22,934 nucleotides of DNA. Origin: a virus. The stretch covers positions 1-22,934 of IMG/VR virus record IMGVR_UViG_3300025929_000708; one strand, written 5' to 3'. Under the pieces are notes generated by a model. That model did not search any database. It had not been told where the DNA came from and worked only from the letters and a program-made list of their open reading frames with translations. This document shows positions 2,689 through 19,676 of this stretch, piece by piece (the stretch's first letter is position 1; each line of letters starts with the position of its first letter). A program made the translations under genes and the position numbers.

Positions 2689-5502
2689 TCAGTTGCCGAA
2701 GAAGACGGCGTTGACGGTGTGGCTGCCCGAGAGCGTCGTGCCCGACGCGTTCCACCCGGACAGGGTGATCGTGGTCGAGGTGATCGTGTCCACGCGGTAC
2801 TGCTGCCCGGTGTCCCCGCTCGCGGCGAAGACGAGGACGAACAGCGGCGTGAACGACCAGCCGTGGCTGAAGCTCCCGCTCCCCGCGGTGAACGTCACCG
2901 AGTACTGCGCCACCGCGAGGAACGGCATCACCTGGCCGGCCGCGCCCATGCCCGCGAGCACCGAGCCGGTCAGCCAGTTCGTCGTGGCGCTCAGGTTCGA
3001 GACCAGCGCGCCGGAGTTGTCCCAATGCACGATCGTGCGTTCCGTCGTGCCGTTCGAGATCAGCAGGTCGCCCTCGGCGAGCTGGCCGCCGCCCGCGATG
3101 CCGCTCTCCAGCGCGATGCGCGCGAAGCTGCCGTCGGCCTCGGCCGCGGACTTGATGATCAGCGCCTCGCGGGTGAGCCCGGCGCCCTGCGCGTAGTTCG
3201 CATAGATCTGCGACGGGCTGACCGGCGGGGAGCTGCTGTTGGCGGTGAGCTGGATCACGGGGCTCTGCGTGGAGTCCGGCGCGTGGTTGATGATCAGCGA
3301 CGCGTTGCCGGGGTCCGTGTACAGCTTGAGCCCGTCGATGCCGAAGCTGCCGATGAGCAGGCCGTTGTTGTCGTAGGCGTAGAAGGTGTCGGTGGCGCCG
3401 TCCATCAGGACGCGCCCGCCGCTGGCCGCGGTCTCGATCGTGCCGGACAGGATCACCCCCGCGGTGATCGTGCCGGCGGTGATTTTCGAGGCGGACAGGT
3501 CCGTGATGTAGGCGTCGGACAGCAGCGCGGCGCTCGCGCCGGCGGCCGCGGACGGGTTGGATTTGTTGCCGGTGATGTCCACCGCGACGATCTTGATGTA
3601 CATCTGCTGCGCGGGCGGCTGACCCGGCGGGATCGTGAACGACCCCACCGCCGGGATCAGGCCCGTGATGTTGCCGGCCGTCGCGGGCACAAGCCCCAGC
3701 TTCGTCGAGGACGACGGGGAGAACAGCGGCTCATAGCTGCCGTGCACCTCGATGTGGTGCAGGTCCGCGTCCTGGTTGAACGTGCCGCCGTCCGCGCGCC
3801 CGCAGTCCCACGACACCTGCACCGACAGCGTGTTCGCCGCCACCGTCGGCGCGTCCGGGGTCGGCGGACCGGTGGTGTCCACCGCCGCCTGCACCGTGCT
3901 GGTCGCCGACCATGCCGAGGCGTTCGGCGGCGACGCGGTGTCCACGGCCCGGATCTGGAAGTCGTAGTTGATCCCCGGGGTCAGCTCCTGGATCAGCACC
4001 GTGTTCGTGCCCCACGCGACGAAGGTGACCTTCCACTGCGTCGCCGCGATCGGGATCAGCTGCTTGAGCGTGCCCCCTGCGGCGGCCAGCGAGGCGAGGG
4101 TGTAGCCCGCGGACGCCAGCTGCGCGTGCGACGGATTGGTCTGGAACGCGCTCAGGTGCGGCCGGTACTGCACCTCGTAGTGGTCCCCGTCGGTCACCGT
4201 GGAGCCGTCGGCGTTCAGCGGCGTGCCCCAGGCCGCCTGGATCTGCGCCTTGTTCTTGCCGTCGGACGGCCCCACATAGGAAGAGGTGCTGAACGCGCCG
4301 AACACCGGCGTGGCCGGCACCGTCGGGTCCGGGATCGGCCGGGAACCGACCGGCTCACCGGAGGCGGTCAGCGGCCGGCCCACCGCGCCGACCACCACGC
4401 TGGTCGGACCGGACTCTGGCAGCAGGTAGTCCGCCAGGTCGGTCCACGCGCCGTTGCCGTCCCGGTACGCCGCCCCGTACCCGGCCGTCACCGGCCAGTC
4501 CAGTTCGACGCACCGCATCAGCACGGGGTTGAGGACCTCGCCGCGCAGACGCACCTCCTGCGTGTAGTCCACCAGGCCCGCGTCCGGGTCCTGCACGTAC
4601 ACGTAGTCCCCGGCCGTGACGATGCCGCGCACGTCGAACTCGTCGCTGGACAGGATCAGGGCGTTGCGCGGGCTGTTGTACAAGGCGAGCACCGCCGAGG
4701 CGGCGGCCGAGGCGTTGACCGGGCCGGTGGCGGACTGCGACGCCATGCGAACGAGCTTCACCGTGTTGCCGTGGATGTCCTTGTACGGCACGGAGCCCAG
4801 GTTCGCGGAGCCCACCGCGGTCGACCCGGCGTCCCCGGCCGCCAGCACCACCGCCCGGGTGGTGTAGTCGTTCACGTCCCCGGCGTTCTGCAGGCTGCCG
4901 TGCAGCCCGCGCAGGCCCTGGTCGGGGCCCGTGACGCGCCGCACCAGGGCCGCCACCGGGGTGGTGACGTACAGGCTGGACACGGTGCCCGCGTCCAGGG
5001 TCCCGTCGCCGTTCACGCGCCATTCGGCGGCCGCGGTCCCGGTGCCTCCCATCAGCCGGCACACGCTGGTGATGGCGGTGCGCGGAGAGGTCCACACGTA
5101 GGACTGGGTCAGCGTCCCGGGCACCGAGCCGATCACCCCGGCGGTCACGGCGCCGGAGGAAGGCAGCAGCGCCGTGACCGCGCCGGCGAAACTCGCCGCC
5201 ACCAGGTTGATCGGGGTCTCGTACACCGAGCCCTTGTCGTCGGCGTCCCCGAGCCAGAACGCCATCCCGGGTCCGGACAGCGCCACGGGTGCGGTGGTGT
5301 CGGTGCGTGTGACCCCCGTCAGCACGCCCACGTACCGGGCCGATTTGAGCAGCCCGTCGCCCAGCAGCGGCGCCTGCACCCGCCCGGTGGTGATCGCCAC
5401 GTGCCCGAAGTAGCCGAGCGCGTCCAGCACGGCGCGCGGGGTGTCGGGGCGCAGCTGCAGCGACCACTGGCCCAGCGCCATGGAAACCTCGGAAACTCCC
5501 AT
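2689..5502 (-). CDS. Large tail-tip protein with two FN3-like domains
   Basis: This is the largest product here, 937 residues from an ATG at 5502; an ATG at 5481 (MALGQW) is also possible. Residues about 1-380 look like a tail hub, with GYVYVQ-type strands (YVYVQDPDAGLVDYTQEVRL, 301-320) and WPVTAGYGAAYRDG. Two FN3-like modules follow (about 396-541 and 545-655; YDFQIRAVDTASPPNASAWS marks the first, QMYIKIVAVDITGNKSNPSA the second). Then SASKITAGTITAGVILSGTI (670-689), a beta-helix or stalk start found in many phage fibres, and a beta-rich C-terminus. It likely forms the tip and reaches to the host surface. FN3 domains are common in phage tails. The stop is 13 bases before the fibre gene. Confidence 0.85.
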   Translation of the reverse strand: MGVSEVSMALGQWSLQLRPDTPRAVLDALGYFGHVAITTGRVQAPLLGDGLLKSARYVGVLTGVTRTDTTAPVALSGPGMAFWLGDADDKGSVYETPINLVAASFAGAVTALLPSSGAVTAGVIGSVPGTLTQSYVWTSPRTAITSVCRLMGGTGTAAAEWRVNGDGTLDAGTVSSLYVTTPVAALVRRVTGPDQGLRGLHGSLQNAGDVNDYTTRAVVLAAGDAGSTAVGSANLGSVPYKDIHGNTVKLVRMASQSATGPVNASAAASAVLALYNSPRNALILSSDEFDVRGIVTAGDYVYVQDPDAGLVDYTQEVRLRGEVLNPVLMRCVELDWPVTAGYGAAYRDGNGAWTDLADYLLPESGPTSVVVGAVGRPLTASGEPVGSRPIPDPTVPATPVFGAFSTSSYVGPSDGKNKAQIQAAWGTPLNADGSTVTDGDHYEVQYRPHLSAFQTNPSHAQLASAGYTLASLAAAGGTLKQLIPIAATQWKVTFVAWGTNTVLIQELTPGINYDFQIRAVDTASPPNASAWSATSTVQAAVDTTGPPTPDAPTVAANTLSVQVSWDCGRADGGTFNQDADLHHIEVHGSYEPLFSPSSSTKLGLVPATAGNITGLIPAVGSFTIPPGQPPAQQMYIKIVAVDITGNKSNPSAAAGASAALLSDAYITDLSASKITAGTITAGVILSGTIETAASGGRVLMDGATDTFYAYDNNGLLIGSFGIDGLKLYTDPGNASLIINHAPDSTQSPVIQLTANSSSPPVSPSQIYANYAQGAGLTREALIIKSAAEADGSFARIALESGIAGGGQLAEGDLLISNGTTERTIVHWDNSGALVSNLSATTNWLTGSVLAGMGAAGQVMPFLAVAQYSVTFTAGSGSFSHGWSFTPLFVLVFAASGDTGQQYRVDTITSTTITLSGWNASGTTLSGSHTVNAVFFGN

Positions 5503-16980: not shown

Positions 16981-17015
16981 AGGCGTGCCTTCCGGGATGG
17001 CAGGGTCAGTGGTTG

Positions 17016-17047
17016 CCGTTTCGGCTACCGCTGCCAGTCCGTTTCGG
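17016..17047. repeat. Paired 9-mer CCGTTTCGG, 23-bp period (before capsid)
   Basis: CCGTTTCGG occurs at 17016-17024 and 17039-17047, again with a 23-base start-to-start spacing. The near copy ends 35 bases before the capsid GTG. The scaffold-capsid gap of 107 bases (16981-17087) holds this pair and the capsid ribosome site, but no dyad element. Confidence 0.75.
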
Positions 17048-17087
17048 CGCTGTGAGCGGGTGGTGCGCGGTGGTGCTCGGGGTGATG

Positions 17088-17807
17088 CTAGGAGGCGAGG
17101 AACGCGTCCAGAAGGCCGTCGGCCATGGCCTTGGAGACCTGCGCGGGGGTGGCTCGGTCGATGTCCGCTTTTGTCCACTGGCGCTGTCCGCCGGGCTGCG
17201 CGTTGAACTCGCCGGCCGTGGACGCGCGGCGCTGCGCAGCAGGCTGCCCGGCGCTGGCCGCGGAGGCCGCTGCCGTGGATGCGCCGGCGGTGTTCTTGCC
17301 GTACCGGGCCGGGGATTCGGCCACGGCCGCGACAATCACGGCTTTGACCGCGTCGCTGTCGGCGGGGTCGACGCCGTCGAGTCTGGCCATGAACGTGCGG
17401 CTGTCGAGCAGCGCGTCGCCGTCGGCCTCCACGCGCCCGGCGGTGCGCAGCACCGCGAGCTCCAGCGCCCTGGATCTGGCTTCGCGCTGGGATGCTTCGA
17501 GCTTGGCGGTGATGGCGGCCGGGTCGGGTGTTTCCTCGGCGAGGCCGACCTTGGCAGCGATCTTCGCGAGTAGTTCCTTCTGTGCTCTCGTCTCGGCGAC
17601 CAGCGCGCCGTCGGCGTTGGCTTTGGCGCGCGCCTCGTTCTGGCGGGCGATGGCCTTCCACTTCTCGGCTTCGGCCTGCCAGTCCGTGGCTGCGGCCGGG
17701 GCCGCGCCGGTTTCTGCCGGGTTTGCCGCCGTGGTGCCGGTGGCCGGGGCGGCGGCGGCCGTGGTCGCCGTTGCGGCTCCCGCGGCGTCGGTTGCCGTCT
17801 CGGTCAT
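17088..17807 (-). CDS. Scaffolding protein
   Basis: Scaffolding proteins fill the prohead, guide coat assembly and then leave. The 239-residue product starts at an ATG with GAGGAA 5 bases upstream. Residues 1-42 are a low-complexity Ala/Thr segment, about 43-125 form a charged helical or coiled-coil region (DWQAEAEKWKAIARQNEARA, then TAKLEASQREARSRALELAV), followed by an Ala/Ser linker, and the last 30 residues hold a basic-acidic helix pair (WTKADIDRATPAQVSKAMAD) like the coat-binding end of many scaffolds. No protease motif is seen. Its position directly before the capsid gene is diagnostic. The assignment is by composition and synteny, since scaffold sequences are poorly conserved. Confidence 0.85.
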   Translation of the reverse strand: MTETATDAAGAATATTAAAAPATGTTAANPAETGAAPAAATDWQAEAEKWKAIARQNEARAKANADGALVAETRAQKELLAKIAAKVGLAEETPDPAAITAKLEASQREARSRALELAVLRTAGRVEADGDALLDSRTFMARLDGVDPADSDAVKAVIVAAVAESPARYGKNTAGASTAAASAASAGQPAAQRRASTAGEFNAQPGGQRQWTKADIDRATPAQVSKAMADGLLDAFLAS

Positions 17808-17816
17808 CGGTTCCTC

Positions 17817-17848
17817 CCGTTTCGGGTTCGGGTTCCGTACCGTTTCGG
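17817..17848. repeat. Paired 9-mer CCGTTTCGG, 23-bp period (before scaffold)
   Basis: CCGTTTCGG occurs at 17817-17825 and 17840-17848. Start-to-start distance is 23 bases, the same as in front of the portal and capsid genes. The near copy runs directly into the scaffold ribosome site (GAGGAA) on the minus strand. A one-mismatch relative, CCGTCTCGG, lies at 17795-17803 inside the first codons of the scaffold gene. Confidence 0.75.
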
Positions 17849-17877
17849 CCCGGTTCCGGGTTCAGTATGCCACCGGT

Positions 17878-17893
17878 TCGAACTGGTGTGCGA
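17878..17893. repeat. Intergenic dyad element, copy 4 (portal-scaffold gap)
   Basis: The sequence is TCGAAC-TGGT-GTGCGA. It sits 3 bases after the portal stop. The 16 bases GTTCGAACTGGTGTGC (17876-17891) occur identically, in the same orientation, at 12509-12524. On the minus strand CATACT (17869-17864) lies at the same distance from the dyad as TATGAT does from the copy at 12511, so it may be the matching -10. Confidence 0.65.
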
Positions 17894-17896
17894 GTT

Positions 17897-19609
17897 TCAC
17901 GTCTGCAGTGTCGCCCCGCTGTCCGCGCCGACGCCCTGGGCGGTGGGGTCCACCGCGATCGTGTCCGCGATCTCCTGCACCTCCTGGCCGACCGTGGCCT
18001 TCGAGCCCTGCGGCGGGGTGAGCGTGACGCGCGCGCGGGCCAGCACGTCGAACCCTTCCTCGTCGCGGATCGCCAGGACCTCCTCGTCGATCTGCTCCTG
18101 CGTCCAGTCCGGGTGCACCATCCCGACCAGGGTCTGCTTGCTGGCGGCTTGCGCGGTCGAGAGGGCGACGGCGGTCTGGGCCAGCTCCTGCGGGCTGGGC
18201 AGCACCGCGTCGGGGAACACGATGTCGGGCCGCTCGGGTTTGAGGCCCGGCTTGCGGAAGACCGCGCTTTCGACGGCCATGAGGCTGAACGCCGCGTCGG
18301 CCAGCCGAGGCTTCCAGTAGTGGATCTTCTTGGAGCGGGTCAGGAGGCTGCGGCGGTTGCGGTCCTCGATCTCCGTGGCGGTGACGTTGCCCGCTGAGGT
18401 GGCCTGCTCGCCGAAGGTCTGCGGCGAGTACCCGGCCCCGTGCACGATCACACTCACCAGGGCGTCGGCGGTCGCCTTGTGCTCGGCGAACCGGATGGCG
18501 AACTGGTTCGCGGTGATCAGCGACTTGTCGGCGGCGCCCGCGAGCATGTTCATCGGGATGAACACCTCCCGGTCCACGTCCGCGATCGCGGGTTTGCCGG
18601 GGCCGCGCGACTCCAGATAGGACGGGGGCACCATCAGCCGGCTCTTGGCCAGGCGCACGTCGCGCATCCAGGAGGAGTAGGTCTCGTCCAGGGCGTCCAT
18701 CATGCCCTCCACGCCCTGGTAGTCGCTGCGCCCGACGGGCGCGGCTCCGGGAACCCACCGCCACAGCCGGTTGGGGCGCATGTTCGGGATGTAGGTGACG
18801 GTGGCGGCGCCCTGGGGCAGGTCGGGCAGGTTGATGGTGTCGCCGCCCGCGGTGCCGATCGCGGCGACGATCGGTTCGAGCTGTTCGAAATTCGCCAGCG
18901 AGTCGGGCGTGCCGATGCGGATCTGGTCGCCGATGTACACCGCGTGCTGGATGTAGCCGTCGATCAGGTTGTGCTGTTCGAGGTGGCGCACGACCTGGTC
19001 CCCGGAGTCCTCCAGCACACGCCAGAAGATCACGCTCGCGAGGTGTCCGTAGCGGAAGGTGGGGACCGCGGCGTCGGGGTGGACGATGTCGAGCCACGGG
19101 CGGTCTGAGACCTGCTCGTCCCACACGGTGCGCAGGTACACCCCGCCCAGGCCCGCGTCGACCTCGGCCGCCTCCAGCAGGGTGGCGTGCAGTTCGTCGT
19201 CTACGCGTTCCTCCAGCCACGCCTGCCCGACCTTGTCGGTGACTTCGAGGCGGGGTTTCTTGGCGAACAGCAGGTCTGCGCTCATGGAGGCGATGTCGCC
19301 GGCGATGGGCACGTGGAGTTTCGCGCGCTTCTCCGCGGCGGGGGTGAGCTGGCCCCAGAAGTACCGGTCGTTGGTGGCGGTGGCGCTGGTCATGGGGGCG
19401 CGGAACTGGGAGCTGACGGAGTATTCGCCGGAGGTGGAGAAGAACGCGGTGGCATTGCGGGAGTTGCCGCCCAGGCCCTGGTAGGCGAAGGAGAGTTCGT
19501 CTGCGGAGCCGGAGAACCACGCGGACCAGAGGGATTGGGCGCGTGCGACGGGCGCCCAGATGACCGGTGGCCAGGGTGTGTTCTTGTCGGTGGGGAGCTG
19601 CGGCGCCAC
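17897..19609 (-). CDS. Portal protein (SPP1 gp6 / A118-like)
   Basis: The portal is the dodecameric ring at one head vertex through which DNA enters and leaves. I chose the GTG at 19609 (570 residues) because AAAGGG lies about 7 bases upstream; the frame is open further up but crosses an intergenic repeat region. The sequence has the layout of the Phage_prot_Gp6 group: an N-terminal region with QLTPAAEKRAKLHVPIAGDI, a central alpha/beta wing (DIVHPDAAVPTFRYGHLASV), a middle segment with RDVRLAKSRLMVPPSYLES, then a long helical part (NQFAIRFAEHKATADALVS and ATEIEDRNRRSLLTRSKKI) for the stem and crown. The C-terminus is helical and acidic. The large terminase lies upstream and the scaffold and capsid genes follow, which fits. 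Confidence 0.88.
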   Translation of the reverse strand: MAPQLPTDKNTPWPPVIWAPVARAQSLWSAWFSGSADELSFAYQGLGGNSRNATAFFSTSGEYSVSSQFRAPMTSATATNDRYFWGQLTPAAEKRAKLHVPIAGDIASMSADLLFAKKPRLEVTDKVGQAWLEERVDDELHATLLEAAEVDAGLGGVYLRTVWDEQVSDRPWLDIVHPDAAVPTFRYGHLASVIFWRVLEDSGDQVVRHLEQHNLIDGYIQHAVYIGDQIRIGTPDSLANFEQLEPIVAAIGTAGGDTINLPDLPQGAATVTYIPNMRPNRLWRWVPGAAPVGRSDYQGVEGMMDALDETYSSWMRDVRLAKSRLMVPPSYLESRGPGKPAIADVDREVFIPMNMLAGAADKSLITANQFAIRFAEHKATADALVSVIVHGAGYSPQTFGEQATSAGNVTATEIEDRNRRSLLTRSKKIHYWKPRLADAAFSLMAVESAVFRKPGLKPERPDIVFPDAVLPSPQELAQTAVALSTAQAASKQTLVGMVHPDWTQEQIDEEVLAIRDEEGFDVLARARVTLTPPQGSKATVGQEVQEIADTIAVDPTAQGVGADSGATLQT

Positions 19610-19644
19610 GGTTCGCCCTTTCGGCTGCCGGAACGGGGGGGTTG

Positions 19645-19676
19645 CCGTTTCGGCTGCCGCGCGGGTTCCGTTTCGG
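19645..19676. repeat. Paired 9-mer CCGTTTCGG, 23-bp period (before portal)
   Basis: CCGTTTCGG occurs at 19645-19653 and 19668-19676, separated by 14 bases. On the transcribed strand each reads CCGAAACGG. The near copy ends 35 bases before the portal start, the same distance as for the capsid pair. A one-mismatch relative, CCCTTTCGG, lies at 19616-19624. The surrounding GGTTGCCGTTTCGGCT is shared exactly with the capsid-upstream copy at 17011-17026. Confidence 0.75.

Follow-up and report, generated by a model that had tools for sequence, protein, structure and literature searches.

Paired hairpins before the packaging and head genes of actinobacteriophages: a probable translational control element

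Paired words in the leaders of the portal, scaffold and capsid genes

The window is the whole stretch of DNA that was analysed, 22,934 nucleotides of the IMG/VR virus record IMGVR_UViG_3300025929_000708 (positions 1 to 22,934), and our subject is a nine-base word, CCGTTTCGG, which occurs in pairs before its portal, scaffold and major head protein genes. The three genes, whose identities were confirmed by PHROGs, lie on the minus strand, so the word reads CCGAAACGG in the coding sense and each CCGAAACGG pair stands directly 5' of one of them. A scan of both strands of the window found six exact copies, at 17016, 17039, 17817, 17840, 19645 and 19668, and no others. They form three pairs, each 23 bp start to start and all confined to the gaps preceding the three genes, as a first-pass annotation of the sequence had noted. 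First-order Markov simulation of the window gave an expectation of 0.27 exact copies, both strands together, and 0 of 150 simulated windows contained a pair 13 to 45 nt apart.

The near copy ends 35 nt before the start codon at the portal (GTG 19609) and capsid (GTG 16980) genes, where the same annotation had placed it, and 9 nt 5' of the ATG at the scaffold gene. At the ribosome-binding sites in the portal and capsid gaps there are also copies that are shorter or differ by one base, which had not been listed before. The copy farther from the start codon and its hairpin are called H1, and the nearer ones H2.

19668..19676, minus strand: portal leader H1, the first copy of CCGAAACGG, kept in the related contigs L009 and L115 with spacing 21 and 24
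19645..19653, minus strand: portal leader H2, the second copy of CCGAAACGG, 35 nt before GTG 19609
19628..19636, minus strand: CCGTTCCGG, a near-complement of portal H2 that could pair with it, as in the minimum-free-energy fold; kept in L009 and L115
19616..19624, minus strand: CCGAAAGGG, a third hairpin-like copy in the portal leader, of CC-GAAA-GG tetraloop form, overlapping the ribosome-binding site
17897..19609, minus strand: portal gene, GTG start (PHROG 533, E 1.7e-93)
17840..17848, minus strand: scaffold leader H1, predicted to pair and to have a CCG/CGG lower stem, with compensatory changes in L009 and L115
17817..17825, minus strand: scaffold leader H2, CCCGAAACGGG, with Shine-Dalgarno bases directly next to it, 9 nt before ATG 17807
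17088..17807, minus strand: head scaffolding protein gene (PHROG 2592, E 4e-10)
17039..17047, minus strand: capsid leader H1; about 40 nt around H1 and H2 are nearly invariant in L009 and L115
17016..17024, minus strand: capsid leader H2, GCCGAAACGGC, a hairpin that the predicted fold contains, 35 nt before GTG 16980
16988..16995, minus strand: CCGGAAGG at the capsid ribosome-binding site, CC-GGAA-GG; CCGAAAGG in L009
16072..16980, minus strand: major head protein gene, GTG start (PHROG 267, E 1e-56)

Loss of the motif from relatives with the same gene order would, according to the first-pass annotation, have marked the pairing as chance; three related contigs (L016, L009 and L115) retain it before the same three genes. 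L016 equals the window sequence in those leaders; in L009 and L115 all three pairs are present, the first scaffold copy with a single mismatch. The spacing of the portal pair is 21, 23 or 24 in the related contigs, where the portal is 67% identical. The scaffold leader of the window folds into both hairpins, which is the typical form of the element, and in L009 and L115 its two arms have both changed and still pair, as in the CCGAACC-GAAAA-GGTTCGG of L009. Judged from sequence, the portal and capsid leaders are a derived form, with the 9-mer pair further upstream and a CC-GNRA-GG hairpin at the Shine-Dalgarno sequence. The pairing of portal H2 with the downstream CCGTTCCGG (19628-19653) would make a long alternative hairpin, which is kept in L009 and L115 and might act as a switch.

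Stem pairing and loop identity across phages

An exact scan of IMG/VR with a 14-base gap returned 31 contigs, including unrelated ones where the pair precedes a terminase small subunit gene (terS) or a scaffold gene. A scan with a free gap gave many more matches. The set used below consists of 248 distinct elements from other phage contigs, deduplicated by protein N-terminus. The main locations are before terS and scaffold genes, and the start-to-start spacing is 14-38 nt, mostly 20-26, meaning that the 23-bp spacing emphasized in the first-pass annotation describes all pairs of the window and is not general. H2 lies mostly 8-12 nt before the start codon, and its 3' arm runs on as GAG or GGA in 207 of the 248 elements, which places it against the Shine-Dalgarno sequence.

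Carrier contigs span 49-72% G+C, and the named phages with the element have Streptomyces, Gordonia, Mycobacterium, Microbacterium and Actinomyces hosts. It stands before terS and scaffold in Microbacterium vB_MoxS-R1 and before scaffold in Actinomyces xhp1, Gordonia PhorbesPhlower (L682), the Streptomyces phages VWB (ACA loops) and phiSASD1 (CAA loops) and the Mycobacterium prophage McProf, where the second hairpin carries a compensatory change of the core stem itself, GCG-AAA-CGC. The exact word was not found before scaffold in Rhodococcus ReT1v-2, Brevibacterium AGM1, Gordonia Kuwabara and Gordonia Emalyn. A whole Plantibacter genome has two pattern matches, both within a prophage and before terS and scaffold, indicating a phage element and not a host regulon. 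No further convincing element was found in 395 actinobacterial, 274 gammaproteobacterial and 289 alphaproteobacterial genomes, where two matches looked like chance.

Two observations concern gene annotation at these sites. In L682 (3817-3852), the annotated scaffold start at 3817 falls within H1, and the element points to ATG 3850 as the real start. PHROG 226 (L243 gene 1, Tweety) is a terminase small subunit family with a MAGRGPAPKDPSKR-type N-terminus; PHROGs and a number of RefSeq phage records label it 'minor tail protein', many GenBank ones terminase small subunit.

The first copy is often the tip of a longer inverted repeat with phage-specific arms, for example gcctcaCCGAAACGGtggggc, tgaCCGAAACGGtca and ggccCCGAAACGGggc. 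The first position flanking H1 is paired in 64 of 72 elements, against 30+-4 with shuffled partners, and the excess continues out to the sixth position. In an alignment of 58 sequences, 80.5% of the cells of the nine-pair H1 helix are paired (62.6+-1.6 when shuffled), and the helix scores 0.427 for covariation, compared with 0.159+-0.019 after shuffling (0 of 500 shuffles) and at most 0.218 for a slid control, which retains the relatedness of the sequences. H2 lengthens by one pair in 69 of 72 elements, compared with 59.8+-1.5. The exact 9-mers lie on a single strand in 20 of 20 carrier records, despite the near-palindromic CCG...CGG, and a control scan for TTT loops gave eight matches, one of them plausible (L292). 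Upstream hairpins of at least five pairs number 53 against 38 after shuffling, which is weakly above expectation because G+C-rich sequence folds readily. The covarying stem, single orientation and Shine-Dalgarno abutment together point to two RNA hairpins.

The loops are of two kinds, NAA and NCA. Start-codon-anchored scans with the loop left free gave AAA 37, CAA 23, ACA 16 and GAA 6 times among 89 scaffold leaders, and no mixture of NAA and NCA within an H1-H2 pair was seen in the loop-free scans. Over the 248 elements, most of which come from patterns with the loop fixed or narrowed, the middle loop bases of H1 and H2 are A/A in 172, C/C in 75 and A/C in one. Because most patterns constrained the loop in this way, the clean tests of loop matching are separate from this count. 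When ACA was required first and AAA permitted second, H2 was ACA in 59 of 59 elements. A scan for mixed AAA-ACA pairs gave 18 stretches, two of them plausible (L696 and L699), to be set against the matched-pair scans, where the matches listed are a lower bound. The first loop base is unmatched between the hairpins (C/A 35, G/A 13), which argues against simple duplication. By sequence comparison, the element thus has two hairpin apexes, a covarying H1 stem, a one-strand orientation, a second hairpin abutting the Shine-Dalgarno sequence and a matched middle loop base.

The loop class is also common to elements before different genes (terS and scaffold) of one genome, with the single exception of L618 (AAA and ATA). 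L618, with ATA/ATA before a second gene, and L292, with TTT/TTT before a terS-like one, may represent further classes. A change of class between close relatives is seen in L195 and L453, which share 87% identity over the 3.8 kb that precede the leader and 95% beyond it. Between L195 3791-4064 and L453 4251-4543, the leader and the scaffold N-terminus have been exchanged and both loops switched together. The terminase large subunits are 97% and the portals 95% identical across this switch, and a capsid family is 85% identical across a change of class, so none of these three proteins is likely to be the sole determinant of the loop class. The comparison of protein relatedness, aimed at the determinant of the class, yielded no candidate reader.

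Similar words also occur in other settings. The exact-spacing scan of bacterial genomes gave mostly unrelated period-23 arrays, which by eye resemble the ends of IS21-family elements, together with chance matches. In bacterial sequences such as L040, L057, L079, L091 and L111, tandem CCGAAACGG arrays of period 23 lie near 'ggtcacgat...ccgaaatacgca', again IS21-family-end-like by eye and an unrelated use. Terminal repeats of IS21 type were rejected for the window, since such repeats form a tandem array where a transposase operon ends and the window pairs sit between structural genes. Pairs of the form CCGAAACGGTAGC...CCGAAACGGTAGC in L004, L005, L011, L025, L028, L029 and L031 (about 50% G+C) are not start-associated. 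In L137, L139, L146, L163 and L218, ATAACCGAAACGGTA-like words 25 bp apart precede a small protein beginning M(N/K)L(T/I); these repeats look like operator sites of another phage group.

Translational control and its alternatives

We consider it probable, at roughly 60%, that the pairs are a tandem-hairpin mRNA element regulating the translation of packaging and head genes, read by a putative loop-specific and probably phage-encoded factor. Each pair would act in cis, from the mRNA leader of a packaging or head gene. Its hairpins have the common apex CC-G-NNN-C-GG, with a variable lower stem in H1 and a minimal H2 whose 3' arm adjoins the Shine-Dalgarno sequence. A stabilised H2 would mask that sequence, and an opened H2 would expose it. 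The overlap of H2 with the Shine-Dalgarno sequence, the narrow distance to the start codon and the loose distance between H1 and H2 suit control of translation initiation better than a role in transcription. Matched loops, both within elements and between elements of one genome, suggest one loop-reading factor per phage. This candidate trans-acting RNA-binding factor may co-regulate the terminase small subunit and scaffold genes and, in the window phage, also the portal and capsid genes. Since both loop classes occur in Streptomyces phages (VWB and phiSASD1), the reader is probably encoded by the phage and not a host factor. Small RNA hairpins acting on translation were the last of three options in the first-pass annotation, an option favoured by the covarying stem, the bias to one strand, the location at the ribosome-binding site and the matched loops of the two copies.

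Several points weigh against this reading. Within the window, both hairpins fold in the scaffold leader only; the predicted capsid leader fold contains H2 only, and the portal leader favours another fold. The folding z-scores of the three leaders are unremarkable (-0.74, 0.23 and -1.46), and several other elements have folding energies no better than shuffled sequence. No window leader is clearly ahead of shuffled sequence in overall folding, so for the window itself the evidence comes from its relatives. The core CCG/CGG pairs are invariant throughout the aligned set, which was collected by that word, and the shuffle statistics ignore shared ancestry, deduplication having been by protein N-terminus only. 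Loop matching could come from lineage or recombination instead of a binder. In scaffold leaders, a T-run (U-tract) follows 8 of the 53 best hairpins, and such H1 stems could be terminators.

An alternative that we regard as unlikely is mRNA processing or stability, in which the transcript is cleaved between the hairpins, H1 shielding the upstream 3' end and H2 the downstream 5' end, so that the head genes are expressed above those preceding them. Upstream of scaffold, a point at which expression has to go up, the hairpins do flank a short linker, and some H1 carry a U-run; however, processing leaves the match of the middle loop base between H1 and H2 and between genes unexplained, and the element also precedes terS, which is often the first gene of the operon.

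Distinctly unlikely is a combination of H1 stems as intrinsic terminators with an ordinary stable hairpin near the ribosome-binding site and no specific reader, GNRA-type loops being favoured for stability. GAAA and GCAA loops are stable, and in several H1 a perfect stem precedes a T-run (gcctcaCCGAAACGGtggggcTTTTT). The low share of T-runs given above speaks against it, as does the window itself, where a terminator scan came back empty, with no terminator-like site and no stem followed by a T-run; stability alone would also leave the mutual exclusion of NAA and NCA unexplained.

The two remaining options of the first-pass annotation concern DNA. Paired sites for a dimeric DNA-binding regulator, such as an operator or two activator sites on one face of the helix, are very unlikely in our view. 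A direct repeat of a near-palindromic 9-mer is what such a protein might use, and matched copies would also suit a DNA-binding protein of varying specificity, but the spacing is free and keeps no helical phase, the orientation is strict in spite of the near-palindrome, the arms vary yet stay complementary, and the sites lie inside an operon, between a stop codon and a ribosome-binding site. A phage-specific late promoter, whose two similar boxes at -35 and -10 would serve a phage or ECF sigma factor, is scarcely credible: the 23-bp spacing of the window does equal that of -35 and -10 boxes with a 17-bp spacer, but there is no fixed spacer over the 248 elements or even among close relatives, the lower stem outside the 9-mer covaries, and the second copy, usually abutting the Shine-Dalgarno sequence 8-12 nt before the ATG, lies too close to the gene for a -10 box and a transcription start beyond it. 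A promoter scan of the window was empty.

Related systems and meaning for phage assembly

Several known systems resemble the element, and the first two given here come nearest. The Start Associated Sequences (SAS) and Extended SAS were described in Cluster K mycobacteriophages (PMC3203893), with similar motifs in Microbacterium Cluster EF phages (PMC7302621). Like SAS, the present element is a repeated motif at the ribosome-binding sites of several actinobacteriophage genes, in one orientation and with a conserved second part just upstream. The H2 end lies mostly 8-12 nt before the start and on one strand, as the position of SAS demands; the exact word of the window does so only at scaffold. 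The motif differs, being CCG-NNN-CGG and not the SAS consensus GGGATAGGAGCCC or GGGAAAGGACCCC (PMC3203893, PMC7302621). Cluster K SAS lie among non-structural genes, their function being unknown and a role in translation initiation proposed, and changes in the inverted repeats of the Extended SAS do not support RNA pairing according to the authors (PMC3203893). In contrast, the present sites precede packaging and head genes, their stem covaries and they occur in many unrelated phages.

The Cluster O mycobacteriophages carry 17-bp dyad repeats, TGTTCGG-NNN-CCGAACA (PMC4351075), which likewise have short G+C-rich arms around a three-base AAA/TTT centre. In those repeats the arms do not vary, sites occur in either orientation and some lie within genes (PMC4351075), whereas the outer arms of the present element vary and stay paired, the orientation is fixed and the sites are start-associated.

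The lambda-type boxB hairpin has a GNRNA pentaloop read by the N protein (PMC12027372). The likeness, which is one of sequence, lies in a short hairpin, a GNRA-like five-base loop with an extra 3' base (GAAAC, GCAAC, GACAC) and a lineage-specific loop identity; in L583, a GACA tetraloop replaces the pentaloop by sequence. boxB serves transcription antitermination together with boxA and N, whereas here two hairpins stand at individual late gene starts next to the Shine-Dalgarno sequence. No N-like protein turned up, although no search was aimed at such a protein or at boxA.

Hairpins that serve as translational operators at ribosome-binding sites include the MS2 coat operator and the T4 gp43 operator. 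As in these, a hairpin overlaps the Shine-Dalgarno sequence and is proposed to be read by a protein; unlike them, the present element is tandem, has matched loops and several target genes per phage, and its reader is putative. Rfam gave no relevant match at the gathering score or at E up to 1, and no description of the word or element was found in the literature covered, which includes few subscription papers, so an earlier description is possible. Start-associated and probably protein-read RNA operators are a known kind, and what is probably new here is the tandem of hairpins, the shared loop code and the position before packaging and head genes.

In double-stranded DNA phages, the balance of packaging enzyme, scaffold and capsid is usually ascribed to gene order and ribosome-binding strength. 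An RNA element conserved before packaging and head genes points to an active layer of control. For annotation, the element shows where scaffold and terminase small subunit genes really start. More tentatively, actinobacteriophages may possess a translational regulon for virion assembly, in which one RNA-binding regulator per phage would read the NAA/NCA loop code and set the dose of the packaging and head genes together, the code being switched as a unit between close relatives.

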